Both the position numbers and the translations under genes were made by a program. DNA of 64,000 nt from Streptomyces sp. NBC_00510 (GTDB lineage Bacteria; Actinomycetota; Actinomycetes; Streptomycetales; Streptomycetaceae), in the NCBI GenBank assembly GCA_036013505.1, contig CP107851.1, forward strand, positions 4,225,501 through 4,289,500, in the 5' to 3' direction. Shown piece after piece: positions 5,549 to 42,248 of this stretch. The notes beneath the pieces were generated by a model, which worked only from the letters and a program-made list of their open reading frames with translations, searched no databases and was not told the DNA's origin. Every line of letters starts with the position of its first letter. Position 1 is the stretch's first letter.

Positions 5549-5577
5549 GGTGGCTCCTTGCGACTTGGGGGGCGGGT

Positions 5578-28904: not shown

Positions 28905-29165
28905 TCACCCGGCGAAGGTCCCGTAGGCGGCGACGACCAGCGCCAGCAACCCGGTGAGCGCTGCCACGGCGGGCAGCGGCCAGCGGGAACGCTCCAGCGC
29001 CTCGATGCGGTCCTCATGCTCGCCCAGCACCTTGTCGGTCTGGTCGGCGCGCTGCAGGAGCAGGGCGAGATCACCCCGCGTGGTGGCGAAGCCGACGTCG
29101 ACGGAGCGGCGCAGTCGCTCGAGTTCGAGGGCGACCCCGAGGGTGCCTTCCTGATGCGTGGTCAT
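28905..29165 (-). CDS. XhlA-like lysis accessory protein
   Basis: An 86-residue protein. Residues 1-60 are a charged, coiled-coil-like helix (VALELERLRRSVDVGFATTR...LGEHEDRIEALERSR) and residues 65-84 form one C-terminal membrane helix (VAALTGLLALVVAAYGTFAG). This layout matches XhlA/haemolysin-like proteins that work with the holin and amidase in phage lysis cassettes. The ATG at 29165 follows the holin gene stop by five bases, so it is the last gene of the lysis cassette. A longer in-frame reading runs antisense-like through the holin and amidase and is not real. Confidence 0.7.
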   Translation of the reverse strand: MTTHQEGTLGVALELERLRRSVDVGFATTRGDLALLLQRADQTDKVLGEHEDRIEALERSRWPLPAVAALTGLLALVVAAYGTFAG

Positions 29166-29170
29166 CTGCC

Positions 29171-29362
29171 TCACCGCCTCAGCCAGGAGGGCAGCAGCCG
29201 CTCGACGGCGTCGAGGGACATCACGCGGGTGACGGCGGCCGCGACGGCGAGCACGGTGCAGGCGCCCGGCCAGGTCGCGTCGACCAGCAGCGGCGCGGCG
29301 GCGGCGAGGGCGACGCCGGTCTGGACAAGGGTGCGGATGGTACGCCGGTCGGCGTCGGTCAT
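29171..29362 (-). CDS. Small holin-like membrane protein
   Basis: A 63-residue protein with a short polar N-terminus (MTDADRRTIRT), two closely spaced membrane helices at about 10-28 and 31-48 (LVQTGVALAAAAPLLVD, ACTVLAVAAAVTRVM), and a basic C-terminus (ERLLPSWLRR). Size, topology and position next to an amidase are those of a phage holin, which would release the amidase through the membrane. The ATG at 29362 follows GGAGACCAC and overlaps the amidase stop by four bases. Confidence 0.75.
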   Translation of the reverse strand: MTDADRRTIRTLVQTGVALAAAAPLLVDATWPGACTVLAVAAAVTRVMSLDAVERLLPSWLRR

Positions 29363-30213
29363 GTGGTCTCCTTCCTCTTCGGGACGTGCAGTCCGTCCCA
29401 ACTGGTGCGGCCGGGGATGCCGTCGGCGTCCGCGCCGCCGTAGCCGAGCTTGCGCTGCCAGGCGGCGTAGGAGCGGCGGTCGGCTTCGGTCCACTCCGGC
29501 CCGGGCCCTTGCCGGTAGCGGCCGCAGCCGACGGCGACGAGGCGCCGGCCCATCGCCGTGACGACGTCGCTGCGACGGCCGGGCCGGAAGAAGGCGGCGC
29601 CCGGGAAGGGCTCGTACGTCCGCGCGGGCGGGGTTCCGAGCCGCTTGGCGACGCGCTCCCGCATGGCCGGCATCGGGAAGCTCGGATCGATCTTCCGTCG
29701 CGTCCATTCCTTGTGCCCGATGACGTGGCCGGCGCTCCAGCCGTGCACCCGGCACAGGGCGACGGCGGTCCTCTCCACGGCCGCCAACTGGGCGGCGGGG
29801 TAGGGGTCGTGGCCATCGCCCACGTTCTCGATCTCGAACCCGTAGAAGTGGGCGTTGCCGTCGACGGCGTCGGCACCGGGCTTCGCGGGCAGCGAGCGGC
29901 CGGCGCGGACGGCGTCGTACACGGCGCTCGAACCGCTGCCGGCGTGGTTGGTGCGCCCGTACCCGACCAGGTGCACGGTGCCGTCCTTGGCGATGACCCC
30001 GATGCACAGCGGTCCCGGCAGGTCGGCGCGGCCGGTCCGGCACAGGCCCACGCTGTCCCGGCCGGCGGTGTGATGCAGCATCACACCGTGCACCTGGCCC
30101 CAGGCGGCGACGTCGTTGCGGTTGTGGGTGCGCCAGTCGCCGTGTCCGGCGACGGTGACGCCTTCGGCATCGAGAGCGGCCAGGAATGCCGTCGCGGAGA
30201 CGGGTGTGGCCAT
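29359..30213 (-). CDS. N-acetylmuramoyl-L-alanine amidase (phage endolysin type)
   Basis: A 284-residue endolysin of the Amidase_2/PGRP family. VHGVMLHHTAGRD (about 41-53) carries a zinc-binding His, and GHVIGHKEWTRRKIDPSF (about 161-178) carries the second His and the Asp in place of Cys as third ligand. YGFEIENVGDG contains the catalytic-region Glu. The last 60 residues (YAAWQRKLGYGGADADGIPG, then SWDGL) form a peptidoglycan-binding repeat. There is no signal peptide, so export should depend on the holin encoded next. It would cleave the bond between MurNAc and the stem peptide. A strong hairpin upstream separates it from the fibre gene. Confidence 0.88.
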   Translation of the reverse strand: MATPVSATAFLAALDAEGVTVAGHGDWRTHNRNDVAAWGQVHGVMLHHTAGRDSVGLCRTGRADLPGPLCIGVIAKDGTVHLVGYGRTNHAGSGSSAVYDAVRAGRSLPAKPGADAVDGNAHFYGFEIENVGDGHDPYPAAQLAAVERTAVALCRVHGWSAGHVIGHKEWTRRKIDPSFPMPAMRERVAKRLGTPPARTYEPFPGAAFFRPGRRSDVVTAMGRRLVAVGCGRYRQGPGPEWTEADRRSYAAWQRKLGYGGADADGIPGRTSWDGLHVPKRKETT

Positions 30214-30273
30214 GGTTCCTCCTCTGATCGGTGGGACGGTGGGACGTTGGGACTGGGAACGGGAACGGGGAAG

Positions 30274-30305
30274 CCCCGGGCCGCCGTGTGCACGGCGGCC
30301 CGGGG
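30274..30305. terminator. 15-bp perfect hairpin between fibre and lysis genes
   Basis: CCCCGGGCCGCCGTG (30274-30288) and CACGGCGGCCCGGGG (30291-30305) are perfect inverted repeats separated by two bases. The hairpin divides the structural operon from the amidase/holin cassette. It would limit lysis-gene expression from the tail promoter, or require a separate promoter between 30214 and 30273. Confidence 0.75.
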
Positions 30306-30329
30306 TTCTGGGCCCGGGGGCGGACGGTC

Positions 30330-30980
30330 CTACAGCAGCGGGTCGATCCGGATGAAGCGGGTGTCGAAGTTGGCCGTGCTGGACGCGTTGCCGGAGCGGT
30401 AGGCGGGTGTGGCGGTGTAGCCGGTGCCCGCCGTGAGGCCCGTCACGAGGAACTGGCTGGACGACGAACCCCGGCCGGTGTTGGTGACCAGCGCCGCCCG
30501 GTCGTCGCTGGTGGCGAGGATCACCGCGTTGTCCGAGGCTCTGCGGACCGTGGCGGACATGTAGGAGCTGTACGCCCCCGAACTCCACATGTAGGCGCCC
30601 ACCGTCACGATGACCTGGCCGGAGGCGGGCGCCGTGAAGGCGGCCGCCATGGGGTCGCCGACCGCGTCGGTCAGGGTCTCCGCGTACGTCGTCGAGTTCG
30701 TGGTGCCACCGTCCACGTTCACCCGGAACACCGGGACGGCCCCCACGGGTGCCCAGACGGTCCCGGTGTACTGCACCAGCCGTCCGGGGGTCGTCAGCCA
30801 GGCGACCATGCCGGCCACGGGTGCCGTGACCTTGGCGTCGCGCGACGCCGCGTCCGCGAAGCGCATCACGGTGCGGCCGTCCACGCCCTCCGCGAGCGCC
30901 CTGAGGTTCGCGGGCAGGTCGGCGGCGTCGGTGGCCTGGGGGTAGGGGAGATTGCTGATCGGGGTGTACTGCGTGCTCAC
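30330..30980 (-). CDS. Tail fibre / receptor-binding protein 1
   Basis: A 216-residue protein. Residues 1-78 (PISNLPYPQATDAADLPANL, then DGRTVMRFADAASRD) are shared closely with the protein at 37013, whereas the rest differs. The C-terminus is Thr/Ser/Gly-rich and beta-structured (AAFTAPASGQVIVTVGAYMW, SSQFLVTGLTAGTGYT), as in fibre tips and C1q/TNF-like heads. It should bind the target surface, with the common N-terminus anchoring it to the tail. The GTG start overlaps the preceding stop by four bases, right after the large tip protein genes. Confidence 0.75.
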   Translation of the reverse strand: MSTQYTPISNLPYPQATDAADLPANLRALAEGVDGRTVMRFADAASRDAKVTAPVAGMVAWLTTPGRLVQYTGTVWAPVGAVPVFRVNVDGGTTNSTTYAETLTDAVGDPMAAAFTAPASGQVIVTVGAYMWSSGAYSSYMSATVRRASDNAVILATSDDRAALVTNTGRGSSSSQFLVTGLTAGTGYTATPAYRSGNASSTANFDTRFIRIDPLL

Positions 30981-31270
30981 GCGGTGGCCTCCGCTGCGGG
31001 CTCGGGTACGCCGCCGCCTTCGGCGGTGTACGGGGACGGGGTGGCTTCCTCCTCCTCGCCGGGGCCGTGCGGGGACGGCGGGTCCGGTTCCCCGTCCGGC
31101 GGCAGGCCGTCGCTGACCGTGACGGCGACCGGAAGGTCGGGCCCGTGGTCCGCGGCCGCGCCGACGCCGAGGTATCCGGCGAGTTCCGTCGTCACCGCGT
31201 CGGCCAGCTGCAGGAACTGGACGTCCGTCAGGGTGACGGGCCCGGGCGACCCGGGGGTGTTCTCAGGCAT
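30977..31270 (-). CDS. Small acidic proline-rich tail-associated protein
   Basis: A 97-residue protein. Residues 11-40 (PVTLTDVQFLQLADAVTTEL) form a helical segment; the rest is a Pro/Glu/Gly-rich, probably disordered tail (PPSPHGPGEEEEATPSPY). It sits between the tip/hub gene and the fibre gene and overlaps both by a few bases. It is likely a linker or chaperone for the fibre. No family is recognised. Confidence 0.6.
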   Translation of the reverse strand: MPENTPGSPGPVTLTDVQFLQLADAVTTELAGYLGVGAAADHGPDLPVAVTVSDGLPPDGEPDPPSPHGPGEEEEATPSPYTAEGGGVPEPAAEATA

Positions 31271-33671
31271 GGGTGCCCTCCTTGATGTCCCGCCAGGTCC
31301 GGCCGCCGGCCTTCACCTCGGCGAGGGTCGGATACGCGGCCGCCACCTGGGCGTACGTCTGCCACACCTCCGTCACCAGGGCCGCCGGGGCGTCGGGGGT
31401 CAGCCCGGAGTCCGCGGGGACCCCGTTGGGCACGGTCCCGCGCAGGGTCAGGCTCTGCCGCACCCCGCCGGCCGCCGTCGCCGAGGTCTTGATCCCGGTG
31501 ACCCAGGCCAGGGTGTCCAGTCGGGCGCCGCTGGTGTCGACCAGCCGCACGACGTCGCCGAGCTGGATCCGCGGGTCGGGGAGCACCTCGACGTCGCCGA
31601 TGACGGGGACGGGGTACTCGCCGGCCTTGCGCATGGCGTCGGCGAGCGACTGCGCGCCCCGCAGGTCCTGCACCCAGTCCGTGGCCTCGGCGGAGTACTC
31701 CTGGCGTCCGTAGAACCGTTCGCCGGCACTGCCCGCCACCCAGGATGTGGCGAAGCGCTCGGCCGGGTCGTCGGCCGGCTTGAGGGTCTCGAGGTGGACG
31801 GACGGCTCGCCGGTCTTCGTGACGGTGTAGAGCGTCTGCGCGCTGCGGTTGCTGAAGCGCACCACGAGGTAGCCGTCCTCGCGGCGGGTCAGGACGTCGA
31901 CCGCGCCCTTGACCGCCGTCGCCCCGGCCGCGGGCGACGTCGCGAAGCGCACCGAGGACCCGGAGGTGGTGACGGAGTCGTCGTCGGTCAGCGGTGGTCC
32001 GATGTCGAACTCCTCCTCGGCCATCACGTAGCTGACCGTGACCGATCGGTTCGCGGGGATCTCCCGGATGGTGCCGTCGTCGTAGACGGTCCCGGTCGCC
32101 GCGCCGGTCTTGGACCAGTCCTTGGCGGGCTGGACGCAGTAGTTCCGGCAGGCGTCGATCTCCTCCGTGACGGTCAGCGCGGCGATGTCCCGCACGGTGG
32201 TCAGCGTGAGGTCGGCCGCCGTGGGGGGCTGGGCGAACCGGGTGTGGTTGCGCCAGCGGAATACGCCGAGCTCGTCGAACTCGGCGGTCGCCATGGTCGC
32301 CTTGGCGATCTGCGTCAGCACGTCCCACTGCGAGCCCGAGACGCGGGGGACGGAGACCAGCGGGAAGACCGCGTCGTCGAGGACCGCGCCCTTGGTCCAG
32401 GTGCCGGACTGGCCGAAGACGGCCGCGGCCGGCATCGCGGCCAGCCCGGAGGTCACCTGCAGCGATTCCACGGCCACGGTGGTGACCAGCCGCACCTGGT
32501 CCAGCTCGGCGGACTTCTGGAGGCCGGACGGCTGGACGTACGTGGCCGCCGTCCCCAGCAGCTGCGTTCCGTCGGGTGCGGTCAGCCTCGGCTGCACGGT
32601 GGGGTACACCGCGGTCCCGGTGCCCGCCGTGTCGAAGAACGCGCCGATGTGCCAGACGCCCCGCTGTGCCCTGATGGCCGGCCATGACCACTCGAAGTAC
32701 CAGTAGCCCTGGTCCGAGCCCTCGGAGTAGAGGCGGACGGTGCCGGCGACGAAGTCGACGACCAGGCGCAGGGTGCCCGTCGCCGATCCCGTGCGGTTGA
32801 GCTGGAGGTGGATCTCCACCGTGTCGCCGATGCCGACGGCGTTGTTGACCCACGCCTCGGCGAACAGCCGGCTGCCCGGCACGGTGACCCGGCTGCGCGG
32901 GAACCAGGAGGTCGTCAGGCCCGTGGTGCCCGGCTCCAGCCCGGTGGGCACGAGCGCCATCTCGTGGGGCGCGTCCTGCCTGGTCCACGTGTAGTTCCGC
33001 GGATCGGGCAGCACCTCCGGCTGGCCGTAGGGCGTGGTGAACCCGCCGTGCAGCGTCGCGTGGACGAGGGTGAGCGGCTGCCCCTCGACGAACTCGGGGT
33101 AGCGCGCGGGCGGGGAGCTGTGGAGTCCCGCCTGCCGGAGGAGTTCGTCCACGCACCAGGTCGCCGAGGACACCGGGCGCTTCCGGAAGAACCCGATGTA
33201 CGGCTTCGGCAGGACGGCGGGGCCGCGCAGCCGCTCGGCCCCGTCCAGCGCGGTGACCTTGACGGTGTCGCTGCCGGAGGCCGCGCTGCGGGCCCGGACC
33301 GTGCCGCGGAAGACGGCCAGGTCGTTCCCGCCGAGCCCCGCGGCGTGCACCACGGACTGGCCGGGACGGACGAGGTCTCCCGTGCTCCTGGGCGCCCACG
33401 GCGAGTACAGCTGCGGGCCGGACTGGTCGGCTCTGCCCTGCAGGTGTTCGTCCGACGAGACGGCCGCACCCGAGATCTCGAACTCGGCCTGGGCCGAGGC
33501 GCTGCCGGCGAACGCCCGCATCGCCTCCGGAAGGTCGGTCGCGTACGACCGGTCCACGCTCCACGACTGCACCTGGGCGCCGAGGTCCTTGCCGCCGAAG
33601 CGGGTGGAGTGGGACGTGGTCCGCTCGCCCTGCGCGAGGGCCGCGCCGAGCGCGTCGTCAGCCCGCTGCAC
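31263..33671 (-). CDS. Large tail tip/hub (Tal-like) protein
   Basis: An 802-residue protein directly after the distal-tail gene, the usual place for the tail-associated tip or hub. The N-terminal 250 residues (FRGTVRARSAASGSDTVKVT, ALDGAERLRGP) look like the gp27-type ring domain that docks on the distal tail protein. Residues about 290-400 (IHLQLNRTGSATGTLRLVVD, YWYFEWSWPAI) resemble a lectin/concanavalin-like beta domain. The C-terminal part (VEVLPDPRIQLGDVVRLVDT) resembles the second gp27-like domain. No peptidase motif was seen, so host-wall digestion probably falls to other proteins. Confidence 0.75.
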   Translation of the reverse strand: MQRADDALGAALAQGERTTSHSTRFGGKDLGAQVQSWSVDRSYATDLPEAMRAFAGSASAQAEFEISGAAVSSDEHLQGRADQSGPQLYSPWAPRSTGDLVRPGQSVVHAAGLGGNDLAVFRGTVRARSAASGSDTVKVTALDGAERLRGPAVLPKPYIGFFRKRPVSSATWCVDELLRQAGLHSSPPARYPEFVEGQPLTLVHATLHGGFTTPYGQPEVLPDPRNYTWTRQDAPHEMALVPTGLEPGTTGLTTSWFPRSRVTVPGSRLFAEAWVNNAVGIGDTVEIHLQLNRTGSATGTLRLVVDFVAGTVRLYSEGSDQGYWYFEWSWPAIRAQRGVWHIGAFFDTAGTGTAVYPTVQPRLTAPDGTQLLGTAATYVQPSGLQKSAELDQVRLVTTVAVESLQVTSGLAAMPAAAVFGQSGTWTKGAVLDDAVFPLVSVPRVSGSQWDVLTQIAKATMATAEFDELGVFRWRNHTRFAQPPTAADLTLTTVRDIAALTVTEEIDACRNYCVQPAKDWSKTGAATGTVYDDGTIREIPANRSVTVSYVMAEEEFDIGPPLTDDDSVTTSGSSVRFATSPAAGATAVKGAVDVLTRREDGYLVVRFSNRSAQTLYTVTKTGEPSVHLETLKPADDPAERFATSWVAGSAGERFYGRQEYSAEATDWVQDLRGAQSLADAMRKAGEYPVPVIGDVEVLPDPRIQLGDVVRLVDTSGARLDTLAWVTGIKTSATAAGGVRQSLTLRGTVPNGVPADSGLTPDAPAALVTEVWQTYAQVAAAYPTLAEVKAGGRTWRDIKEGTHA

Positions 33672-34488
33672 CGGCCACCTCCACCAGGTCGATGCTCACG
33701 CCGCGGTACGGCAGCGGCTGGGCCGGCACGTCGCTGTACCCGGTGACCGCCATCGCGGGGCAGCCGTCGCCGGGGACGCCGTCCGCGGCGCCGTCGTCGT
33801 ACGACAGGCAGGCCCCGGCGAGGGCGTACGTCCCGGCGGCCCCGGGCTTCACGCAGGGCGTCACGAAGGCCGCGCCCGGCGGTACGGTCCCCGCCACGTA
33901 GGCGCCGTTCGCCGACACCGACGACAGGTAGGCACCGGCGGCGTTCTTGAAGTCGAGGTTCACCGCGCACGTCGGCAGGGCGGCGATCGCCGTGGGGGCC
34001 CGGAAGGAGATCCGGGTGCCGGGCGCGACGGGGTGGTTGCCCCAGTAGCGGTGGCGCCAGGCGACCTTTCCGGCGGTGTCCGAGGCGGTGAAGGCGAAGA
34101 CCCCGGGGGACGCCGATTCCGCAACGGTCCCCGTGCCACCGCCCACCACCAGGAACCACTGGCTGAGCCCCAGGCTCCCCGGCTCCCCCCGGCCGGCCGC
34201 CTGCAGGGCGTCCAGCATGTTGGCAGCCGCCGGGTCGAGCAGCGCGACCGGCCCGGTGCCGTCGGTGCGGCGGGCCAGCCGGTCCAGCACCCTGGCCTGC
34301 GCGGGCTCCAGCGTGTCCCAGCTCAGCTTGGTCCGGCGGTTGGCGCGCGCGTTGCGCACGACGGTCACCCGGCCGCCGAGCGACGTGAACTCCGACACGC
34401 CGAGGTCGGCGCTCCGGTCGAAGCTCCGTGCCGCGCGGTCGATCTCGTACAGCGAACCGGGCGGTCCGATCCACAGGTTCCTGCCCAT
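33658..34488 (-). CDS. Distal tail-like protein with beta-rich C-terminus
   Basis: A 276-residue protein. The N-terminal third (MGRNLWIGPPGSLYEIDRAA, then FTSLGGRVTVVRNARAN) fits the first domain of distal tail (Dit) proteins that cap the tube. The remainder (ASPGVFAFTASDTAGKVAWR, ISFRAPTAIAALPTCAVNLD) is a beta-sandwich with Cys-containing loops, perhaps carbohydrate-binding. The position between tape measure and tip gene supports the assignment, and the 3' end overlaps the tip gene by 14 bases. A U-tract terminator follows the tape measure gene just upstream. Confidence 0.65.
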   Translation of the reverse strand: MGRNLWIGPPGSLYEIDRAARSFDRSADLGVSEFTSLGGRVTVVRNARANRRTKLSWDTLEPAQARVLDRLARRTDGTGPVALLDPAAANMLDALQAAGRGEPGSLGLSQWFLVVGGGTGTVAESASPGVFAFTASDTAGKVAWRHRYWGNHPVAPGTRISFRAPTAIAALPTCAVNLDFKNAAGAYLSSVSANGAYVAGTVPPGAAFVTPCVKPGAAGTYALAGACLSYDDGAADGVPGDGCPAMAVTGYSDVPAQPLPYRGVSIDLVEVAGAAG

Positions 34489-34519
34489 GTGTCACCTCGT
34501 CTCTTGCCGTCAGGGCATG

Positions 34520-34546
34520 AAAAAGGCCGGCGACACGGTCGCCGGC
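34520..34546 (-). terminator. Intrinsic terminator after the tape measure gene
   Basis: On the minus strand GCCGGCGAC and GTCGCCGGC form a 9-bp stem (34538-34546 with 34526-34534) with a CGT loop, followed shortly by TTTTT (34520-34524). This is the only hairpin with a true U-tract noticed in the module. It lies between the tape measure and distal tail genes, so it would reduce downstream transcription. Confidence 0.7.
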
Positions 34547-34581
34547 GTCGAATCCGTACGAAGGGCGGAGAGGGGCGCGGC

Positions 34582-35571
34582 TCAGCGCCGCGCGAGTTGC
34601 CGGTTGCCCAGCGACACGGCCCGCGCGATGGTCTGCGCGTCCACCTGGACGACGACGGGGCGCTCCGCGAGCTTCTCCACGGCCGCCGCCAGCCGCGCCA
34701 TGTGCGCCGGCGATCCGCCGCCCCTGCCGAGCATCTGCTCCAGCCTGCTGAGCGGGATGACCGCCTCGGCCTCACCGCCCTCACCGACCAGCGCCAGCGT
34801 GCCGCCGTCGCGGGCGGGGACGACACCGCCCTGGGCGAGGGTGGGGATGTTGGGGATCTGCGGGAGGTGGATCGAGAAGGACTTGCCGCCGATCACCGGC
34901 ACCCAGCCCGGGATCGACACGTGGACCCGGTTCAGCGCGGAGATCATGTAGTTGATGCCGCTGATGTAGGCGCGGGGCAGCGCGGTGAAGGCGTTGATGA
35001 TGCCCTTCAGAACGGACTTGATGGGACCCGCGTGGGACTTGATGGCACCGAGGATGGCGTTCCAGGCCCACTTCACGCCCTTGGCCAGGGCGGCGGACAC
35101 CTTGTCCATGTTGATGAACTGGGAAATGATCGGCGCGAGCAGTGCCATGACGAGCCCGAACGGGTTCGCCGCCATCGCGAGGTTGAGCCCCCGCTGCGCG
35201 AGCGAGGCCCCCTTGAGCCCCTTCCCGAGGCCCCCCATGGACTTCCCACCGCGGTCGGCGTTCTTGCCGGCCTTCCCGACGGACTTCTCGACGGCGTCGG
35301 ACTGACGCTTCACGTCGCGCAGTGCCTCCTCGGCCTTGCCGGAGGAACCCTTGAGCTTGTCGAGGGAGGTCTTGAACTTGTCGGTGCTCCCACGGGACTT
35401 GCCGAGGGCCGTGTCGGCTGTGCCGAGACCGGTACGCAGCCTGCCCACGGCGCCGCCGGCCGAGTCCGCACCCCCCTTGACCCGGTTCATCGCCGTCCCG
35501 GTACGGCTGAGGGAACCCCCCAGTCCCGCGAGCCGGGCATCCACTCCGGCAATGGCCTGCTTCAGATTCAT
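34582..35571 (-). CDS. Short tape measure protein
   Basis: A 329-residue protein with tape-measure traits. The N-terminal 120 residues are Gly/Ser/Lys-rich heptad-like helices (GLGGSLSRTGTAMNRVKGGA, LDKLKGSSGKAEEALRDVKR). A hydrophobic patch follows at about 125-155 (LAMAANPFGLVMALLAPIIS), and the C-terminus contains GGVVPARDGGTLALVGEGGE with AVIPLSRL, the end motif common to siphophage tape measures. Using the usual 0.15 nm per residue, it implies a tail of only about 50 nm. It is preceded by the 177-residue protein at 35601 and followed by a terminator. Confidence 0.85.
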   Translation of the reverse strand: MNLKQAIAGVDARLAGLGGSLSRTGTAMNRVKGGADSAGGAVGRLRTGLGTADTALGKSRGSTDKFKTSLDKLKGSSGKAEEALRDVKRQSDAVEKSVGKAGKNADRGGKSMGGLGKGLKGASLAQRGLNLAMAANPFGLVMALLAPIISQFINMDKVSAALAKGVKWAWNAILGAIKSHAGPIKSVLKGIINAFTALPRAYISGINYMISALNRVHVSIPGWVPVIGGKSFSIHLPQIPNIPTLAQGGVVPARDGGTLALVGEGGEAEAVIPLSRLEQMLGRGGGSPAHMARLAAAVEKLAERPVVVQVDAQTIARAVSLGNRQLARR

Positions 35572-35600
35572 GTCTGCCTCAATTCCCTTGTGCTGAGCGA

Positions 35601-36134: not shown

Positions 36135-36190
36135 GCGAACTCCTGTAGTCCTGGTTGCATCGACGTCGGGCGGCGTCATAGCCTCCCGAC

Positions 36191-36943
36191 ATGGCTGCCG
36201 GAGAGCTGCGTCCACCGGGAAAGGGCGCGAACCCCCGCAAAGGGATTTTCGCTGCCTCCATGGCCACCCGGATCAGCGGAACGAAGCGGCATTCGACCCG
36301 TGTCGTCCTCGCCCTCCCCGGCGCACACCGCTATCCGTTCGAGACCGGCGTCATCGCCGACATGGCCCGCAGAGCTGCCACGCTGGGCGGATTCCTGGCT
36401 CCGGGGGCGGGCGTGGACGTCTGGATGTACACCTCACGGCCGCACCGCCTTCCGGAGCTCCGCCTGCCCCAAGCCGCGGGGTGGATCGCCGACTGGGCGG
36501 TGCTCCCACGCGAGCCGCTGCTCTCCCGGGACGCCGTGCCGGGCAATCCCCTGGCCCGGCACGCGGAGCGCTACGAACTCTTCGGCCCCGAGGACGCAGC
36601 CGCGGCGATCCGGGAGATCGCGCGCAGTCTCGGCGCGGACGACGGCCCGGCCCTCGTGCTGTTCTTCGTGTGGGGATTCCACTCGGAGGGTCCCGGCTTG
36701 GCCGACCAGCTCGAAGCGGCGTCCGGTGGGAACGTCTTCTGGCAGTTCGTCGGCGACACCGGCATGGGGTCGTCCGTCCTCGACCGCCTGGACACGCTGC
36801 GGGCCGAAGCACCGCACATCGCCAACCTGGACCTCTACCAGGGATGGGACTCGATCCAGGAGACGCCCGAGTATCTCTTCTTCCGCGGCGTACTGAAGCC
36901 GTTCGTCCGCTGGCGTAAGGCCCGTCCCCGGCCGGTGAACTGA
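36191..36943 (+). CDS. TerF-like VWA-domain protein with degenerate MIDAS
   Basis: A 250-residue protein encoded opposite to the tail genes. TRVVLALPGAHRYPFETGVI (about 36-55) aligns with the first strand of TerF/TerY-type VWA domains, and VDVWMYTSRPHRLPEL (about 75-90) with the 'DVWxF' strand. PALVLFFVWGFHSE and NVFWQFVGD (about 175-183) match the family's conserved 'FWQFVG' block, and HIANLDLYQGWD the next. The usual DxSxS is replaced by LPGAHRY, and the second acidic MIDAS position by Trp, so metal binding is probably lost. It lies in the tail module between the tape measure pair and fibre 2; it may be an accessory or cargo gene. An internal ATG at 36260 is possible. Confidence 0.7.
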   Translation: MAAGELRPPGKGANPRKGIFAASMATRISGTKRHSTRVVLALPGAHRYPFETGVIADMARRAATLGGFLAPGAGVDVWMYTSRPHRLPELRLPQAAGWIADWAVLPREPLLSRDAVPGNPLARHAERYELFGPEDAAAAIREIARSLGADDGPALVLFFVWGFHSEGPGLADQLEAASGGNVFWQFVGDTGMGSSVLDRLDTLRAEAPHIANLDLYQGWDSIQETPEYLFFRGVLKPFVRWRKARPRPVN

Positions 36944-37012
36944 GTGAGTGACAGGTCCCGCTGAAGACAGGGCCGACCGCGCAACCACGCGCCACCCCGG
37001 ACCGCGCCGGCC

Positions 37013-37663
37013 TCACGCCGTCTCGTACGTACCGCTGACGCGGAGGAAGCTCCCGCTCGAGAACGCCGTGCCGAACACGCCGCCGCTGCCGACCTGGTTG
37101 AGGGTGGACGCGCTCGTCGAGCCCGGCGCCCACACGGTGAAGCCGGTGGCTCCCGAGGCGGCGGTGAGCTGGCCGCTGACGAGTGCGCGGCCCGTGGAGT
37201 TGGAGGCGTTGCCGACGAACTGGACGAGGGTGCCGGTGGCGCCGGCGACGACGGGCAGGCCGAAGGTGTAGGCACCGCTGCCGTTCGCCGTGGTGGCGCC
37301 GACGGCGAGGTACATCTGGAAGTGGCAGGTCCTGCCGACGAGGGCGTAGCGGCCGGCGATCGTACCGTCGCCGATCGCGGGGTTGGTGGTCGCGGCCGTC
37401 CATGTGGGGGTGTAGCCGTTCCAGACGCCGAGCCCGACCCAGGCGGTGCCGGTGCAGTAGGTGAAGCAGCCGGGAGCGGTCAGCCAAACGAGCATGCCCG
37501 CGGCGGGTGCGGTGATCTTGGCGTCCCGCGTCGCCGCGTCGGGGAAGCGGAGGACGGTACGGCCGTCGGCCGCCTCGGCGAGGGCCTTCACGTGGGCCGG
37601 CAGGTCGGCGTTGTCGGTGGACTGCGGATACGGAAGCGCGCTGAGCGCCGTGTAACTGGTCAC
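37013..37663 (-). CDS. Tail fibre / receptor-binding protein 2
   Basis: A 216-residue protein whose residues 1-78 (SALPYPQSTDNADLPAHVKA, DGRTVLRFPDAATRDAKITA) are about 60% identical by eye to the fibre at 30330, while the C-terminal 135 residues differ. The C-terminus is Gly/Thr-rich and beta-structured (NGYTPTWTAATTNPAIGDGT, LVGRTCHFQMYLAV), like minor fibre tips. Its location, between the chaperone gene and the divergent VWA gene, is not the usual fibre site, so it looks like an inserted cassette giving a second specificity. Confidence 0.75.
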   Translation of the reverse strand: MTSYTALSALPYPQSTDNADLPAHVKALAEAADGRTVLRFPDAATRDAKITAPAAGMLVWLTAPGCFTYCTGTAWVGLGVWNGYTPTWTAATTNPAIGDGTIAGRYALVGRTCHFQMYLAVGATTANGSGAYTFGLPVVAGATGTLVQFVGNASNSTGRALVSGQLTAASGATGFTVWAPGSTSASTLNQVGSGGVFGTAFSSGSFLRVSGTYETA

Positions 37664-37678
37664 GGATGGATCGGCCCC

Positions 37679-38092
37679 TCAAGCGAAGAAACGGATCAAC
37701 TGCGCGGGCGTGGGGTTCTCGGGAACCGGCGACGGGCCCTGGTCCGCGCCGGGGCCGGTCCCGGCGCCGGGGCGTGGGACGGGCGGGGGGTACTCGAGCG
37801 CCTCCGCGTCCTCGTCGCGGTTCACGGTGGCGAACATCCAGTTGGCCTCGGCGAGGTGGTCGACCACGTGGGCGAGCAGGTGGTCGCCCACCGACCAGTC
37901 GGCGGCCTCCCCGTGGATGCGGCGCAGGGTCGCGCTGTCGCGTGGCAGGTGCCGGACCAGCACCGCGAGCCGGCGGGAGGACAGCCGGCCGCGGTGCCAG
38001 TCCAGCAGGTCCACGCCGTAGTGGCGGAGCAGGTCCGCCTCGAGCGCCTCGGCGTGTTCGTCGACGAACCCGCCGAGGCTCAGCCTTCCCCC
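37679..38092 (-). CDS. Tail assembly chaperone, -1 frameshift extension (T-like)
   Basis: The frame reads through the region after the first chaperone: LSLGGFVDEHAEALEADLLR, then YGVDLLDWHRGRLSSRRLAV and a Pro-rich linker, ending PAQLIRFFA. It overlaps the end of the 38080 gene in the -1 frame, joined through the slip site at 38086-38092. The fused product would be about 230 residues. The part after the slip would not be translated efficiently alone; an in-frame GTG at 38014 would make only 111 residues. This arrangement corresponds to lambda G/GT and is a hallmark of working long-tail assembly modules. Confidence 0.7.
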   Translation of the reverse strand, partial: GGRLSLGGFVDEHAEALEADLLRHYGVDLLDWHRGRLSSRRLAVLVRHLPRDSATLRRIHGEAADWSVGDHLLAHVVDHLAEANWMFATVNRDEDAEALEYPPPVPRPGAGTGPGADQGPSPVPENPTPAQLIRFFA

Positions 38093-38370
38093 AGGCCGAG
38101 CCCGGTCTCCTTGCCGTAGGCCTCCAGGATGGCCGCGATGTCCTGCATCGTGACCTCGTGGCGGTCGAAGCGCTCGAACTGCGAGTCGCCCAGGAGCAGT
38201 TCGAGCAGCCCGTCCACGTCGTTGTCGTCCAGGGCCCGCAGCTTGCGGGCCGTGGAGCGGCCGAGCTCGGTGGGGAGCTCGAAGGTGTCACCGTCGACGG
38301 TGAAGGTCCAGGAGCGGCCGAGCGCCTCCAGGCGCTGGGCCCGGGCTGCGCTGACGTCGAAACCGGCCAT
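38080..38370 (-). CDS. Tail assembly chaperone (G-like)
   Basis: A 96-residue acidic, mostly helical protein between the tail tube and tape measure: FTVDGDTFELPTELGRSTAR, then LDDNDVDGLLELLLGDSQFE and AAILEAYGKETGLGLGEG. This matches the size, position and composition of actinophage tail assembly chaperone 1 (a GTA_gp10/DUF-type family). It would coat the tape measure before tube polymerisation. The C-terminal codons contain the slip sequence producing the longer form. Confidence 0.75.
   Translation of the reverse strand: MAGFDVSAARAQRLEALGRSWTFTVDGDTFELPTELGRSTARKLRALDDNDVDGLLELLLGDSQFERFDRHEVTMQDIAAILEAYGKETGLGLGEG
38086..38092 (-). other. Probable -1 ribosomal slip site
   Basis: On the minus strand GGGGGAA spans the codons CTG GGG GAA, just before the first chaperone's GGC TGA. 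Slipping back one base re-pairs the GGG codon perfectly and opens the downstream frame to 37679. The stop codon two codons after the slip fits the usual layout. The pairing of the second codon is imperfect, so efficiency needs testing. Confidence 0.6.
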
Positions 38371-38427
38371 GGTGGATCCCCTCTGTGATGGGTGGGTGGA
38401 GCGGAAGGTGCGGGACGGGGGCCGGAC

Positions 38428-38460
38428 CCGGGGCCGGTGGCGTGACGCCACCGGCCCCGG
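38428..38460. terminator. 16-bp hairpin between tail tube and chaperone genes
   Basis: CCGGGGCCGGTGGCGT (38428-38443) and ACGCCACCGGCCCCGG (38445-38460) are perfect inverted repeats around one base. The hairpin lies immediately downstream of the tail tube gene on the minus strand. Partial termination here would give high tube but low chaperone and tape-measure levels. Confidence 0.7.
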
Positions 38461-38476
38461 CGGTCGGACGGGGCGC

Positions 38477-39037
38477 CTACGCGTAGGAGGCGTCCTTCAT
38501 GAGGATCGTGGCCAGCGGCTTGACGTCGTCCACGGCGAGCGCGGTGAAGGTGACGCCGAGCTTGACCGACGAGGTGCGGTTGAGCGTGATCTCCTCGGTC
38601 TCGGTCACCTGGCCGCGCGGGATCACGAAGCGGTAGGTGACGTTGGCGCCGTCGGTGAACTCGATGCCCATCGCCTTCTCGTTGAACTTCGGCGCGCCTG
38701 CCAGGTCGTACTTCCACTCCGTGCCGGAGGCGGCCACGCTGTCGCCGCCCATGAAGAAGGGCAGGGTGTCCTCGTTGAGCTGCAGCAGCTGGAACTTCAC
38801 GCTCAGGTCCCGGTCGGAGTAGATGAACCGCGCCGGGCTGACGGACTGCCAGGTCTCGACCGGGTCGAGCTTGTCCTTCTTGTTGAACTTGATGCCGTCG
38901 GGCGAGGTGTAGCCGAGGTCCTTCCAGGCGGCTGCCCAGGCGACGACGGTGTCGGCCGGGGCGGCGGTGCCGACGGGGGCGACGAGGATGCGGCCGGTGC
39001 CGGCGACGCGGATCTCGGAAGAGTTGTTGCCTGCCAT
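38477..39037 (-). CDS. Major tail tube protein
   Basis: A 186-residue protein with the pattern of siphophage tail tube subunits. The N-terminus is GTGRILVAPVGTAAPADTVV, then WKDLGYTSPDGIKFNKKDKL, the 'LGYTSEDGI' block typical of actinophage tube proteins. The beta-strands FIYSDRDLSVKFQLLQLNED and YRFVIPRGQVTETEEITLNR follow, and the C-terminus is TFTALAVDDVKPLATILMKD. Hexameric rings would stack to form the flexible tube. It is flanked by strong hairpins on both sides, consistent with it being the most highly expressed structural gene. Confidence 0.88.
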   Translation of the reverse strand: MAGNNSSEIRVAGTGRILVAPVGTAAPADTVVAWAAAWKDLGYTSPDGIKFNKKDKLDPVETWQSVSPARFIYSDRDLSVKFQLLQLNEDTLPFFMGGDSVAASGTEWKYDLAGAPKFNEKAMGIEFTDGANVTYRFVIPRGQVTETEEITLNRTSSVKLGVTFTALAVDDVKPLATILMKDASYA

Positions 39038-39071
39038 GCTGAACTCCTTGCCGGGGATGCGGATATGACGA

Positions 39072-39095
39072 AGGCCCCGCCGGACGGCAGGGCCT
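39072..39095. terminator. Hairpin upstream of the tail tube gene
   Basis: AGGCCCcGCCG (39072-39082) pairs with CGGCaGGGCCT (39085-39095), ten pairs with one mismatch. It lies between the tail terminator gene and the tail tube gene, so the tube gene may have its own promoter between 39038 and 39071, or the hairpin may act on mRNA stability. Confidence 0.5.
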
Positions 39096-39118
39096 GATCA
39101 GAGGTGAGCGCCGGGCGC

Positions 39119-39523
39119 TCAGGCGGGCCGGATGTACAGCCGCGTCGTGGAGTAGTAGCGGTTCGCGGCGGCCCGGTTCCAGTCGGGCAGCCAGCGCGGG
39201 CCGTCGGCCTCGACGACGTCGGTGACGACGGCCGTCCCGTAGGTCGTCGCCCGCAGCGCCTGCACGGCGGACCGGGCGGACAGGGCCAGGGTGTGGGCGG
39301 CCGTCTTGGTCGGGCCGTAGACCTCCAGGTCGACCAGCGGCTGGTCCAGGTGCGCGTCGTCGATCCAGGCCCCTCCCGCACGGGAGACCAGCACGACCGG
39401 CTGGGTGCCGTCGAAGCCGGCGGGCGCGGCGTTGTCGACGGTCGCTCCGGTCAGTTCGGGGCGGGCCTTCAGGAAGTCGACGACCAGCTTCTCCACATCG
39501 GGGAAGACGGGTGGATTGGGCAA
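39119..39523 (-). CDS. Tail terminator / tail completion protein
   Basis: A 134-residue protein placed just before the tube gene, the usual site of the gpU-like terminator that ends tail polymerisation. PPVFPDVEKLVVDFLKARPE (about 4-23), then FDGTQPVVLVSRAGGAWIDD, LVDLEVYGPTKTAAHTLALS and WNRAAANRYYSTTRLYIRPA give the alpha/beta fold of that family (DUF3168/HK97 gp10-like). The start is probably TTG at 39523 with AGGGAG upstream; the longer reading extends into unrelated sequence. It is the first structural gene of the operon. Confidence 0.7.
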   Translation of the reverse strand: MPNPPVFPDVEKLVVDFLKARPELTGATVDNAAPAGFDGTQPVVLVSRAGGAWIDDAHLDQPLVDLEVYGPTKTAAHTLALSARSAVQALRATTYGTAVVTDVVEADGPRWLPDWNRAAANRYYSTTRLYIRPA

Positions 39524-39825
39524 GGGTTTCTGCTCCCTTCGAACGGTGGCGGCGGCTCCGCGGTGCGAGCGGTGGGCCGCCGTCCAGCACGAAGCGGCGG
39601 TCCGTCGCCCGGTCCCGGGCACAGCTCCGCCGCTGCATCCATGGTGATTGATTGCGCTCGCGCGCGCAACTTGAATCGTCTCCGCAATGGCTGGATCCGT
39701 GGACCGAACCGCGCCGCCCGAGGATTGGCGGCACCCGAAAGTGGTGAACACGTGTTTGAAGGACGTCTGGGTCCGGCGACGCTCGACCGCCGCTCGGCAC
39801 CAGGGGGCAACGGGGAGGGAGTGCC
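39524..39825. promoter_or_regulatory. Divergent upstream region of the tail operon
   Basis: About 300 bases separate the tail terminator gene (minus) and the unknown gene at 39826 (plus). It is locally less GC-rich (TGGTGATTGATTGCGC near 39641, CGCGCAACTTGAATCG near 39663, GTGGTGAACACGTGTTTG near 39740), which fits promoters for both directions. The palindrome AACACGTGTT (39746-39755) is a candidate binding site. Confidence 0.45.
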
Positions 39826-40263
39826 GTGCCAGGCACGGAGGACATGCACGAACCGGCGGAGCACCGGGCGCGGGAGCGCACGCAGGAACACGCACAGGAA
39901 CAGGCCCGGCCGGCCGCTCCGCCGGCCGCCCGGACACTGACGGAGGCGGAGGCCCGAGGGCTCATCGAGGAGATCGTCCAGGCGTGCCTGCCCGAGGGCC
40001 TCGTGGCCGTCACCCGCTCCCACCTGGAGGAAATCACTCTGCGCGCCTACGCCCACGGCTGGCAGGACGCGATGAGCCAGTACGAGGAGGAGGCGGAGAC
40101 GGAGCGGGAGGACGGCGTCGCCCGTCCCCGGCCGGGGGACTTTCCGCGGCTCGTGAGCCCGGCGCCCGACACGGCGTCCGCCCCGCCGGGGCCCGCGCCG
40201 GCTCCCCGGCCGCGGCGCCCGCGCCGCCCGCCCCGGGGTCTGCCGGGGGCGGGCATGACCTGA
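39826..40263 (+). CDS. Unknown small protein divergent from the tail operon
   Basis: A 145-residue protein. The N-terminus is Glu/Arg/Ala-rich and probably disordered (MHEPAEHRARERTQEHAQEQ). The middle folds as helices (LTEAEARGLIEEIVQACLPE, GLVAVTRSHLEEITLRAYAH, GWQDAMSQYEEEAE). The C-terminus is Pro/Arg-rich. GGGGAGGG precedes the GTG at a suitable distance. No family is recognised. It is transcribed away from the structural genes and ends in a shared terminator with the HTH gene. Confidence 0.6.
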   Translation: MPGTEDMHEPAEHRARERTQEHAQEQARPAAPPAARTLTEAEARGLIEEIVQACLPEGLVAVTRSHLEEITLRAYAHGWQDAMSQYEEEAETEREDGVARPRPGDFPRLVSPAPDTASAPPGPAPAPRPRRPRRPPRGLPGAGMT

Positions 40264-40290
40264 CGCCGGCCGGTCCCCGGACACGACGCC

Positions 40291-40320
40291 GCCCCGCGTA
40301 CCTCCTCGGGTACGCGGGGC
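40291..40320. terminator. Bidirectional hairpin
   Basis: GCCCCGCGTACC (40291-40302) and GGTACGCGGGGC (40309-40320) form a perfect 12-bp stem with a 6-base loop between the convergent genes at 39826 and 40343. Confidence 0.8.
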
Positions 40321-40342
40321 GATGCAGGGAGATGTCGTGGCG

Positions 40343-40558
40343 TCAGGCGCGCCGCGTGGGCGCTTTTCGGCCACGCGCCACCCGTTCGGCGGCGAACACG
40401 TCCTCCAGCCGGTACAGGCTCGCCCGGCCGCTGCGGCCGGCCGCGGCCAGGTGCCCGAGCTGCACCCACTTGCGGACCGTGGCCGGGACGACCCCCGTCT
40501 CCCGTGCGGCGGACTCGCCGTTGATCAGCGTCGGGCCGGGGTACCGCGCGCTCCTCAC
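40343..40558 (-). CDS. Small helix-turn-helix (MerR/excisionase-like) protein
   Basis: A 71-residue protein: GPTLINGESAARETGVVPAT, then VRKWVQLGHLAAAGRSGRAS and LYRLEDVFAAERVARGRK. This is the winged-HTH pattern of excisionase/MerR-type DNA-binding proteins ('RKWVxxGHL...LYRLEDV'). It is small enough to be a regulator or DNA-architectural protein rather than an enzyme. The GTG at 40558 overlaps the previous stop (GTGA). It is last in the regulatory operon with the Zn-ribbon and WhiB-like genes. The overall layout resembles actinobacterial integrative elements, but no integrase is present. Confidence 0.75.
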   Translation of the reverse strand: MRSARYPGPTLINGESAARETGVVPATVRKWVQLGHLAAAGRSGRASLYRLEDVFAAERVARGRKAPTRRA

Positions 40559-41250
40559 ACGGCCTCCCGGTCCACGAGGCCGGCGATCGCCGCCGGATCC
40601 AGGGGAAGTTGTCCCCATGCGGTCTCGGCCCAGGTGTGACGGTGCGCGGGGTCGTCCGCGCAGCCGCAGTCCTCGTCCGTGCAGCGGCACCCGGGGTTCA
40701 CGCAGAGCACCGTCCTCCGGGCGGGAAGGGCTCGCAACGAGACCGAGTCGCACCAGGGGCAGCGTCCGTCCACCCGGACCAGGACCTCGGTCTCCCCCAG
40801 CACCGACCCGCAGCGGCGGGCCATGCGACGGCATTCGTCGAGGACGTGCGCGGCCAGGACGGGGTGCTCGGCGACCCGGTCGAGCAGGCCCGCGATCCGG
40901 CCCAACCGCTCGGGGACGGGGGCACGGCGGGCACGGCCGAGGCCGAGCTTGTCCCGGACGGCCTCCTCCAGTTCGACGACGCCGTCGGTGATGTCCCGCA
41001 GGGCGTCGGACACATGGAGCCGCAGCGGAGCGGCGCCCCCGCCGAGCACCCACTCGCGGTCGGTCCGGTCCTCCCGGTCGCGTTCCGCGAGCGTCCGCAG
41101 CGCCTGCGGCGTGAGGGGGTCCCTGGACGGGCCCGCGGAGCCGGGACTTCCGGGAACGAGTTCGCGGACGAGCTCGGGGAACTGGCGCCGGAGGATGTCG
41201 AGCCACCGGACGGCCCGGGCGGTGTGCTCGGTGGCGAGGTTGCAGGTCAC
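40555..41250 (-). CDS. Zn-ribbon protein of unknown function
   Basis: A 231-residue protein. The N-terminal 150 residues are helical (ARAVRWLDILRRQFPELVRE, VSDALRDITDGVVELEEAVR). The C-terminus holds a Cys-rich cluster: CPWCD (Cys164, Cys167) and CVNPGCRCTDEDCGC (Cys183, 188, 190, 195, 197), which could bind one or two zinc ions. Such proteins are common in streptomycete phage-related regions, but I cannot name the family. The GTG at 41250 has AAAGGA upstream. It is coupled to the HTH gene downstream. Confidence 0.7.
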   Translation of the reverse strand: MTCNLATEHTARAVRWLDILRRQFPELVRELVPGSPGSAGPSRDPLTPQALRTLAERDREDRTDREWVLGGGAAPLRLHVSDALRDITDGVVELEEAVRDKLGLGRARRAPVPERLGRIAGLLDRVAEHPVLAAHVLDECRRMARRCGSVLGETEVLVRVDGRCPWCDSVSLRALPARRTVLCVNPGCRCTDEDCGCADDPAHRHTWAETAWGQLPLDPAAIAGLVDREAV

Positions 41251-41298
41251 GTGACGATTCCTTTCGTTGCGGACGGCGGTCCCGGGACTCACGCGGAC

Positions 41299-41556
41299 TC
41301 ACGCGGACAGGCCGGGCGCCGGCGCCACCGCGGTCACCCGGCCGTTGCGCCACAGGCGGCCCGCGCAGACGCCGTCGAACCAGCTGTGCTCGGGGTCGAC
41401 GACCTCCTCGCACCCCGCGCGGATCGGGCACCGGCCGCAGGCGAGCAGCGCCGGCAGCGCCTCCCGGGCGTGCCGGGCGAAGACCACGGAGGGCGGCAGA
41501 CCGGCACAGGCGGCGGCTTGCGGGGGCTGAGGTTCGTACGGGGAACGTAAGGACAC
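41299..41556 (-). CDS. WhiB-like iron-sulfur regulator with a TTA codon
   Basis: An 85-residue WhiB-family protein. The four cluster ligands are Cys17, Cys40, Cys43 and Cys49 (CAGLPP, then CGRCPIRAGC), with the usual Cx2Cx5C spacing. The turn motif is GVCAG (62-66) instead of GVWGG, followed by the basic RLWRNGR, the likely DNA or sigma-factor contact. The GTG at 41556 follows GGAGGG. The third codon is TTA (41548-41550), the rare leucine codon read by bldA tRNA, so translation should be limited to the developmental stage. It probably activates the tail module or its regulatory operon. Confidence 0.82.
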   Translation of the reverse strand: MSLRSPYEPQPPQAAACAGLPPSVVFARHAREALPALLACGRCPIRAGCEEVVDPEHSWFDGVCAGRLWRNGRVTAVAPAPGLSA

Positions 41557-41798
41557 GACGGTCGGACCCTCCGACGGTTGACGTTGCGAATTCGAACATA
41601 CTTTCGCATGTTGCGAACGCGCACGCAACAAATTTGTTCCCGGCGCAGGCCTACGGCACGTGCCTGAGGAATATGCCCGACATCCCGCGGACCAGGGGCG
41701 CCCTGAACACGGGATCTTCACCGATGCGAACGCGCAACGGTACATTTCGTGCGCGCACGCTGGTTATCGTGAAGAAGCAAGAGGGAGGAGCCCCACAG
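41557..41798. promoter_or_regulatory. Divergent regulatory region with repeated operator-like sites
   Basis: Between the WhiB-like gene and the XRE-type gene. The 12-mer TGCGAACGCGCA occurs at 41612-41623 and 41725-41736, 113 bp apart. TGTTGCG (41609-41615) and CGCAACA (41624-41630) form an inverted repeat around the first copy, and CGAATTCG (41587-41594) is a separate palindrome. The region is AT-richer than average. These are candidate sites for the XRE-type repressor. Confidence 0.55.
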
Positions 41799-42248
41799 GT
41801 GCCGAGCGATGCCGACCACATCGAAGAGTTCGCCGACTGGATCGAAGGCCTCATGCGCGGCCGGGGGTACGACATCGACAGCCCGCGCGGGGGCGGCAGG
41901 TCGAAGCTCGCGGACGACGCCGGGGTGCACCGCGCGGCCATCACACGGCTGCTGCAGCGGCAGAGCATGCCGGATCTGGAGACGATGCGCGGGCTCGCCC
42001 GTGCGCTCGGCATCCCCGTGCGCGACGTGCTCGTCCGGTCGGGCAAGCTGACCGAGGACGACCTTCCCCGGCCGGACGTCCACGCTTCGGGCGCCGGCCC
42101 CGCGGGACCTCGGATGACCGCCGCGCAGGCGGCGGACGCCCTGGGCATCCCCGAACACCTGAAGGCGGCGTTCATCCAGGTGACGGAGCAGTTCACGCGC
42201 CCCGACCGCGCCGCGGACCTGGGAGCGGGAGACCGCGCGACGGGCTGA
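41799..42248 (+). CDS. XRE-type helix-turn-helix regulator
   Basis: A 149-residue protein. HIEEFADWIEGLMRGRGYDI (about 6-25), then SKLADDAGVHRAAITRLLQR (about 35-54) and PDLETMRGLARALGIPVRDV (about 59-78) give a lambda-repressor-like HTH. The C-terminus (MTAAQAADALGIPEHLKAAF, then IQVTEQF) forms a second small helical unit, perhaps for dimerisation. The GTG at 41799 has an excellent GGGAGGAG site; the longer reading from 41634 would run through the operator repeats. It is probably the repressor of the divergent WhiB-like gene and thus of the tail module. No RecA-cleavable LexA-type protease domain is seen. Confidence 0.8.
   Translation: MPSDADHIEEFADWIEGLMRGRGYDIDSPRGGGRSKLADDAGVHRAAITRLLQRQSMPDLETMRGLARALGIPVRDVLVRSGKLTEDDLPRPDVHASGAGPAGPRMTAAQAADALGIPEHLKAAFIQVTEQFTRPDRAADLGAGDRATG

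Follow-up and report, generated by a model that had tools for sequence, protein, structure and literature searches.

The stretch considered here is a 64,000-nucleotide window of Streptomyces sp. NBC_00510 (contig CP107851.1, positions 4,225,501 to 4,289,500), of which positions 28905–42248 encode a complete-looking non-contractile phage tail set together with lysis genes and regulators (Table 1). All genes of this module lie on the minus strand save the repressor gene, a vWA gene, and a small open reading frame (ORF) at 39826–40263. An ordered, intact-looking set of tail and lysis genes had been described in an earlier, sequence-only reading of the locus, and was confirmed by Pfam and PHROGs scans of 20 window ORFs (one a spurious alternative frame, and with the Wbl-like ORF left out) and by predicted structures. 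Three parts add to that description: the TerF-type vWA gene, a 177-amino-acid (aa) gene ahead of the tape measure (TMP1), and a conserved leader element. The module is likely a domesticated tailocin of the F (non-contractile) type, carried by streptomycetes and by some other actinomycetes.

Table 1. Features of the tail module, in window coordinates (HTH, helix-turn-helix).
Feature	Position	Strand	Basis
REP, phage-type HTH repressor	41799..42248	+	phrog_3949 transcriptional repressor 1.7e-19; HTH_3 4.8e-8
Wbl-like small regulator	41299..41745	-	four cysteines, Cxn-Cx2Cx5C spacing
P405, Cys-rich putative regulator, family marker gene	40555..41250	-	kept in most compared loci
MerR-type HTH regulator, 71 aa	40343..40558	-	phrog_2474 2.2e-13; HTH_17 1.5e-4
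Leader element, TCAC-type box and hairpin	39574..39657 (core 39619-39635)	-	conservation across loci
Tail terminator	39119..39496	-	phrog_123 1.5e-16
Tail tube protein	38477..39037	-	PF25681 6.1e-65; phrog_117 3.6e-44
Tail assembly chaperone G	38080..38370	-	phrog_10551 5.9e-26, scored on longer ORF 38080-38451
Slippery heptamer GGGGGAA, -1 frameshift G to GT	38086..38092	-	in phase across loci
Tail assembly chaperone T, via -1 frameshift	37679..38014	-	phrog_5813 9e-20
Fibre-like tail protein B	37013..37663	-	phrog_16452 3.5e-13 (family without known function)
TerF-type vWA protein, variable-cassette accessory	36260..36943	+	PF10138 3.2e-18
TMP1, hypervariable coiled-coil cassette gene, 177 aa	35601..36134	-	homologous to TMP1 of relatives
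Short tape measure protein, 329 aa	34582..35571	-	phrog_1535 7.9e-13
Distal tail protein, putative inserted carbohydrate-binding-type domain	33658..34488	-	mainly predicted structure
Tail hub/tip, putative inserted lectin-type domain	31263..33671	-	mainly predicted structure
Small protein after hub	30977..31270	-	position only; no Pfam/PHROG family match
Fibre-like tail protein A	30330..30980	-	phrog_16452 2.6e-15 (family without known function)
Amidase endolysin	29359..30213	-	Amidase_2 1.3e-17; phrog_880 4.6e-63
Holin	29171..29362	-	phrog_4316 2e-15 (function unknown); phrog_443 holin 1.5e-4
XhlA-like lysis accessory protein	28905..29165	-	phrog_5225 3.6e-23 (no function there)

Heads and packaging were sought at several scales. 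Within the 20 scanned ORFs, no match was found to sheath, portal, capsid, large terminase, integrase or replication families; the nearest to such a label were weak HTH-level matches of the MerR-type gene (terminase small subunit, 1.5e-4/0.0036; excisionase/regulator, 0.0041; DNA-binding, 0.028) and of the repressor (HTH DNA-binding, 0.041). Genome-wide, models for portal (PF04860), HK97 capsid (PF05065), and large terminase (TerL, PF03354) gave 0 matches in the window's own genome, so that the terminase, portal and capsid of a functional prophage, and the DNA-packaging head of a gene transfer agent, have no counterpart there by these three models. In none of the 58 module-bearing genomes described below did these models match anything less than 50 kb from the module on its contig. 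Elsewhere in these genomes, portal was matched in 12, capsid in 16, and TerL in six, and the nearest head match to any module was a weak capsid 50.7 kb off (G020), followed by one at 242 kb. Six of the 58 modules lie <20 kb from a contig start and some contig ends are close (G130, G355), where a neighbour could be missed. Head types beyond the three models fall outside their coverage, a limit that matters little for copies between rpoC and rpsL, because that interval was read whole in ten genomes (two overlapping pieces each) and contained, apart from the module, no more than two small non-phage genes near its edges. Since no sheath family was matched, a non-contractile tail is supported, in keeping with the earlier view of a particle distinct from contractile systems and lacking terminase, portal, capsid, integrase and replication genes. 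The window thus combines a tail without a sheath, no head or packaging gene by the three models, and lysis genes of its own.

Copies of the module are found well beyond this strain. When 394 Streptomycetaceae genomes were searched for the tube, 83 had matches at E ≤1e-10; these split into 57 (the window's included) at ≥58% identity and a remainder at ≤48%. One further genome (G336, tube 48%) was added because the module was seen there (L105), and the module is thereby present in 58 of the 394. A class-level tube search matched 10 of 394 genomes at E ≤1e-25, nine of them Streptomycetaceae and one outside; one of the nine (G120) is a weak match from the distant group. In the named collection, 179 relatives were found, and the best 80 comprised 74 from Streptomyces and one each from Kitasatospora, Virgisporangium, Kibdelosporangium, Wenjunlia, Amycolatopsis, and Yinghuangia. 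The host genus comprises 35 species in the genome collection used, and some of its genomes are filed under Streptomyces. A plasmid collection gave four tube matches, each at <60% identity. In all, 138 loci were gathered, of which 117 distinct ones were kept for comparison.

The module often occupies a chromosomal region that ranks among the most conserved. Of the 58 genomes, 33 have the tube gene ≤19.1 kb from rpoC, in the rpoC-rpsL gap where this was read; 13 of the remaining 25 copies are far from rpoC on the same contig and 12 are on another contig. Streptomyces griseus is among the species with a copy next to rpsL (L171, L175). Gene order at the gap is rpsL, repressor, regulators, tail operon, amidase, holin, XhlA-like gene (the final gene of the module in relatives, its name taken from the earlier reading), and a convergent rpoC, with the orientation of the module reversed in some loci (L056, L059). 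Other copies adjoin hspR-dnaJ-type genes (L229; gene names by eye). The rpoC-rpsL gap of the window's genome is ~0.9 kb long and without a module, the window copy lying 165 kb away. The two genes that flank this copy are 13,384 bp apart there, and 742, 19, 23, and 321 bp apart (measured between match ends) in four relatives. The closest of the four, G008, holds a decayed end of the XhlA-like gene together with an orphan DUF3592-type membrane gene (L234, 2081-2497), labelled by eye and by similarity to accessory genes of other loci (E 5e-7 and weaker). These flanks without a module, and the G008 remnants, indicate that copies are gained and lost and leave scars. A further scar of a lost module is a TMP1-like fragment (L241, ~4521-4787, in G056) in an otherwise empty rpoC-rpsL gap.

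Core tail genes are under purifying selection, at a level with the host gene fusA. For 28 independent locus pairs with tubes 93–99% identical, pooled ratios of nonsynonymous to synonymous substitution (dN/dS) were 0.14 for the tube, 0.145 for the terminator, 0.21 for chaperone G, 0.35 for chaperone T, 0.27 and 0.40 for the tape measures, 0.23–0.30 for the distal tail protein, 0.21–0.22 for the hub, and 0.40 for the fibres. The lysis and regulatory genes gave 0.18 for the amidase (three pairs), 0.20 for the repressor, 0.27 for P405, and 0.29 for MerR, and fusA itself gave 0.20 (five pairs). Close pairs were used because synonymous sites in wide pairs were taken as saturated in this GC-rich DNA; a first run on wide pairs (tube median 0.65, fusA 0.17) was dropped for that reason. 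At the rpsL site, tube distances correlate with those of fusA (Mantel r 0.33, p 0.0005, 37 loci).

Expression signals are conserved as well. The heptamer GGGGGAA is in phase with an open -1 frame in all 112 loci in which chaperone G was called. The leader consists of a TCAC box, CAGCGGCGGAGCTG, and a 7-bp stem; its core (≤2 mismatches) precedes the terminator gene in 94 of the 116 loci and tracks the genes of the P405/MerR clusters, occurring in 89 of 91 loci with them and 5 of 25 without, counts that are slightly impure since a few loci contributed HspR-type neighbours to the MerR cluster. For one pair of the stem, the 55 aligned sequences (97 extracted) show G-C 39 times, A-U 15 times, and G-U once. 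The weight of the leader lies in this conservation across loci rather than in the window match alone: with ≤3 mismatches, the pattern has a chance mean of 1.22 per window, and one exact match was found. Rfam returned weak matches to F6 small RNA, below the gathering score. A repressor-operator pattern, TGCGNGCGCGCA, was not enriched in the window (7 matches versus 9.75 expected), and no operator is therefore claimed.

Of the regulators, P405 has 427 homologues, and those with names among the 120 listed are all called "hypothetical protein". The Wbl-like ORF, which starts at 41487 according to the gene caller and stays open to 41745, carries a cysteine spacing that we take to be a Wbl signature. 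A small opposite-strand ORF (39826-40263, cluster c37, few loci) sits between the MerR gene and the terminator. Relative to the tail operon, the block of repressor, Wbl, P405, and MerR genes is flipped in L069, L072, L073, L076, L085, L091, L095, L096, L101, L102, L113, L167, L177, and L188. Such inversion fits action in trans, and the block is possibly an invertible switch or the product of an old rearrangement.

The distal tail protein and the hub were assigned mainly through predicted structures. The product of 33658-34488 appears to have the fold of a distal tail protein, split by an insert of carbohydrate-binding type, and that of 31263-33671 a hub fold of the gp27/VgrG/T5 type with a lectin-type insert. 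With Foldseek alone, the distal tail protein was matched weakly, and where the hub insert matched lectin-type domains in unrelated proteins, this was counted as a common fold only. A PDB sequence search found no match with the hub alignment and one weak major-tail-protein match (0.0023) with the tube alignment. A fibre role for protein A is suggested by its gene position, and protein B is homologous to it and falls in the same cluster. Elsewhere in the window, neighbours at 3312-6885 resemble a nonulosonic (sialic-type) acid synthase and a cytidylyltransferase, as judged by eye.

Tape measures of the family are short, with a median of 397 aa (range 242–756) in 108 loci and two per locus in 49 of these. 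Tape-measure length sets tail length, and the short proteins suggest tails shorter than those of related phages. The most variable part of the module lies just ahead of this gene. According to a purpose-made gene caller, which misses some genes, 90 of the 108 loci that show the slot between chaperone T and the tape measure have the extra gene TMP1 there, and 38 of the 108 have an accessory gene (DUF3592, vWA or other). Among close pairs, TMP1 identity fell below 0.5 in 16 of the 21 with TMP1 called in both. Among other genes of the same 28 pairs, this occurred in one of 12 genes of cluster c15 and in none elsewhere (for the tube by construction, since pairs were chosen by tube similarity), and the tape measure was replaced in 0 of 25. 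In six of seven plotted pairs, DNA identity drops at the cassette borders, mostly from 0.85–1.0 to ~0.2–0.6, and then recovers; in the seventh, L072-L073, the cassette is not swapped. The alignments thus reveal exchange of the TMP1 cassette between otherwise near-identical modules, which is a new finding.

Members of the cassette are heterogeneous. Among ten accessories scanned, three were DUF3592, one was vWA, and six had no match; the TerF-type vWA family recurs in the same slot of L074, L101, L157, L162, and L182. The slot also holds opposite-strand extras (cluster c19, small membrane proteins) and pairs of HTH and DUF397-like genes (c24/c27, by eye) in loci L049-L189. TMP1 proteins have a coiled-coil look and a conserved C-terminal end. 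The window's TMP1 has no Pfam or PHROG match.

Two interpretations of the cassette are each held tentatively. In the first, TMP1 would be ejected into the target, as a payload or as a pore-former, and the neighbouring gene would confer self-immunity, in parallel with the superinfection-exclusion membrane proteins of phages that act on tape measures. Exclusion exerted by long-tailed phages can be escaped through tape-measure changes, as described in the available part of PMC10883804. Swapping with sharp borders would suit this interpretation, as would the membrane-like segment in 31 of 47 accessories and the G008 strain, which lost its module yet keeps the orphan DUF3592-type gene by the XhlA remnant. 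Sharing of accessory families also goes with similar TMP1 after regression on tube and TMP2 (36 loci, 53/630 pairs; p 2e-4, or 1 in 5001, the floor of 5000 permutations), although linkage alone can cause such covariation by co-exchange of neighbouring genes. Further points run against this interpretation: an accessory is seen in just 38 of the 108 loci, 16 of 47 accessories (the window vWA protein included) have no membrane-like segment, ten TMP1 proteins gave weak PHROG matches (tape measures and other coiled-coil-rich families) or none, and a hydrophobic segment occurs in 25 of 90. Of 60 module-less rpoC-rpsL stretches fetched, 18 had no rpsL in view, and none of the 42 usable gaps retains an orphan accessory; as a general rule for empty sites, orphan accessories were therefore rejected, G008 having the only one.

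In the second interpretation, for which confidence is also low, TMP1 would have no payload role and its diversity would reflect evasion of phages, of host defences, or of exclusion proteins able to sense proteins of the tape-measure type, or else a fit to tube or tip. The coiled coil, the conserved C-terminal end, the adjoining tape measure and the weak tape-measure likeness of some TMP1 proteins are consistent with this, whereas the tape measure itself is left unreplaced. An extension of the payload idea, somewhat doubtful, is that specificity lies not in the fibres but in an exchangeable warhead-immunity cassette: TMP1 would enter the target membrane, a divergent DUF3592 or vWA partner would protect the producer, and this partner may outlive the weapon as an orphan.

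For the module as a whole, the domesticated tailocin remains the favoured explanation: an old, well preserved, headless tail set that is probably a weapon against rival bacteria. A phage-type switch would turn on a single tail operon; besides the repressor it would include P405 and the MerR-type protein, which probably serve as activators acting on the hairpin leader. The -1-frameshifted chaperones would then assemble a short tube round a short tape measure, tipped by a distal tail protein and hub that bear the putative sugar-binding-type domains. Amidase, holin, and XhlA-like protein would lyse the producer and free the headless tails, which would bind the wall of related bacteria through the sugar-binding-type insertions and kill by opening the membrane. 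Support for this account in the sequences comes from the gene set, the lack of detected heads, selection, the frameshift signal, the leader, the site, and cassette swapping. The order of the steps follows an analogy with the Listeria monocin, as set out in the accessible portion of PMC6872733; particle assembly, lysis, killing, the regulator roles, and every step after transcription are proposed on that basis.

Several observations weigh against this explanation or narrow it. Only 58 of 394 family genomes carry the module, and the scars testify to its loss. Receptor-binding proteins are typically the fastest-changing parts of tailocins, and here neither the fibres nor the hub are the fastest-changing parts. 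Lysis genes were recognised in 29 of 117 loci; the sequence in view was too short in 46 and lacked the hub in 28, and the other 14 lack a recognised lysis gene despite ≥4 kb in view after the hub. No regulator is in view in 23 of 117. With the last two counts, a second function is possible, and part of the family may work otherwise. L122, L123, L127, L140, L141, and L153 are small headless tail islands with no regulators and no lysis gene in view; such regulator-less islands reach Virgisporangium, Kibdelosporangium, and Amycolatopsis, and five of the six have a gene of 55–60 aa before the terminator.

It is unlikely that the domesticated tail serves some end other than killing rivals, for instance as a delivery or cell-death device used in development or towards eukaryotes. 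The loci without lysis genes or regulators would fit such a use, and the contractile systems of Streptomyces have been tied to developmental cell death (PMC10020575, in part) and to fungi (PMC8910223, in part). The window type, by comparison, has its own amidase, holin, and phage-type repressor, and Pfam and PHROGs revealed no toxin family in its module above chance-level labels. TTA codons, a bldA mark, are also rare, with at most five genes per family and the highest count in P405 (5/86).

A prophage that is decaying or defective is a very unlikely explanation, as is a satellite with only a tail that uses the heads of a helper phage. Such an origin would agree with a tail order equal to that of Streptomyces siphophages, PHROG families that match at full length, a distal tail gene of a related type (DIT8, in L067) that is 45–50% identical to phage genes, and the scars of lost copies. 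A single-sequence tube scan of viral contigs found nothing, and a profile scan gave 17 matches. The best of these (52%) lies on an 11-kb contig (L190) that carries the same repressor-P405-MerR and tail genes. Another, a 43.6-kb IMG/VR contig (L205), has a tube 45% identical and a tape measure of 1162 aa, and may represent a relative with a head. Opposed to these are purifying selection at the level of fusA, the lack of an integrase match in the scanned ORFs beyond the HTH-level excisionase label, and a set of 50,697 phage records in which P405 and the window hub have no match and the best tube is just 34.6% identical. A decaying prophage was rejected because no head match by the three models lies within 50 kb of the module on its contig in any of the 58 genomes, tail ORFs are intact (0 of 58 tube matches have an internal stop), and selection persists. 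The sequence-only reading had looked to contiguous head genes or broken tail ORFs in relatives as signs of such decay, and its proposal of a domesticated, non-contractile headless particle is supported by the gene set, the absence of heads near copies, and selection.

If correct, streptomycetes, the main producers of antibiotics, would possess two particle systems derived from phages, the contractile one and this one, which often lies between rpoC and rpsL. A search of the open literature, which most subscription papers lie outside, found no description of a non-contractile Streptomyces tailocin or of a tail module at rpoC-rpsL. F-type tailocins are rarely reported, rhizoviticin being called a rare example in the accessible text of PMC10811719, and their mechanism is termed largely unknown in that of PMC8910223. 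A hypervariable gene beside the tape measure makes this mechanism directly testable.

Comparison with known systems places the module among headless tails. The Streptomyces contractile injection system (eCIS/SLP) is likewise a headless phage tail and shares the hub fold. The present module differs in being non-contractile, with no match to the sheath that marks contractile injection systems and R-type tailocins. Kromp and Attoomi, two Streptomyces siphophages, have the same tail gene order from major tail protein to endolysin; the sequence-only reading gave its order as common to long-tailed phages and F-type pyocins. Unlike the module, they possess terminase, portal, capsid, and a single long tape measure (1604 and 1141 aa by coordinates, versus the module median of 397 aa), and no gene is annotated between chaperones and tape measure, where the module has TMP1. 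The F-pyocin has a non-contractile tail that lacks a head, lysis genes, and control by a repressor. Rhizoviticin shares these three features as far as the available part of PMC10811719 describes it. F-type tailocins are usually SOS-inducible; the module has a phage-type repressor gene, no LexA-type repressor was identified in it, and 33 of the 58 copies adjoin rpoC. In layout the module matches the Listeria monocin (PMC6872733, in part), from which it is set apart by its actinomycete host, the regulators P405, MerR, and Wbl, the hairpin leader, and the TMP1 cassette.

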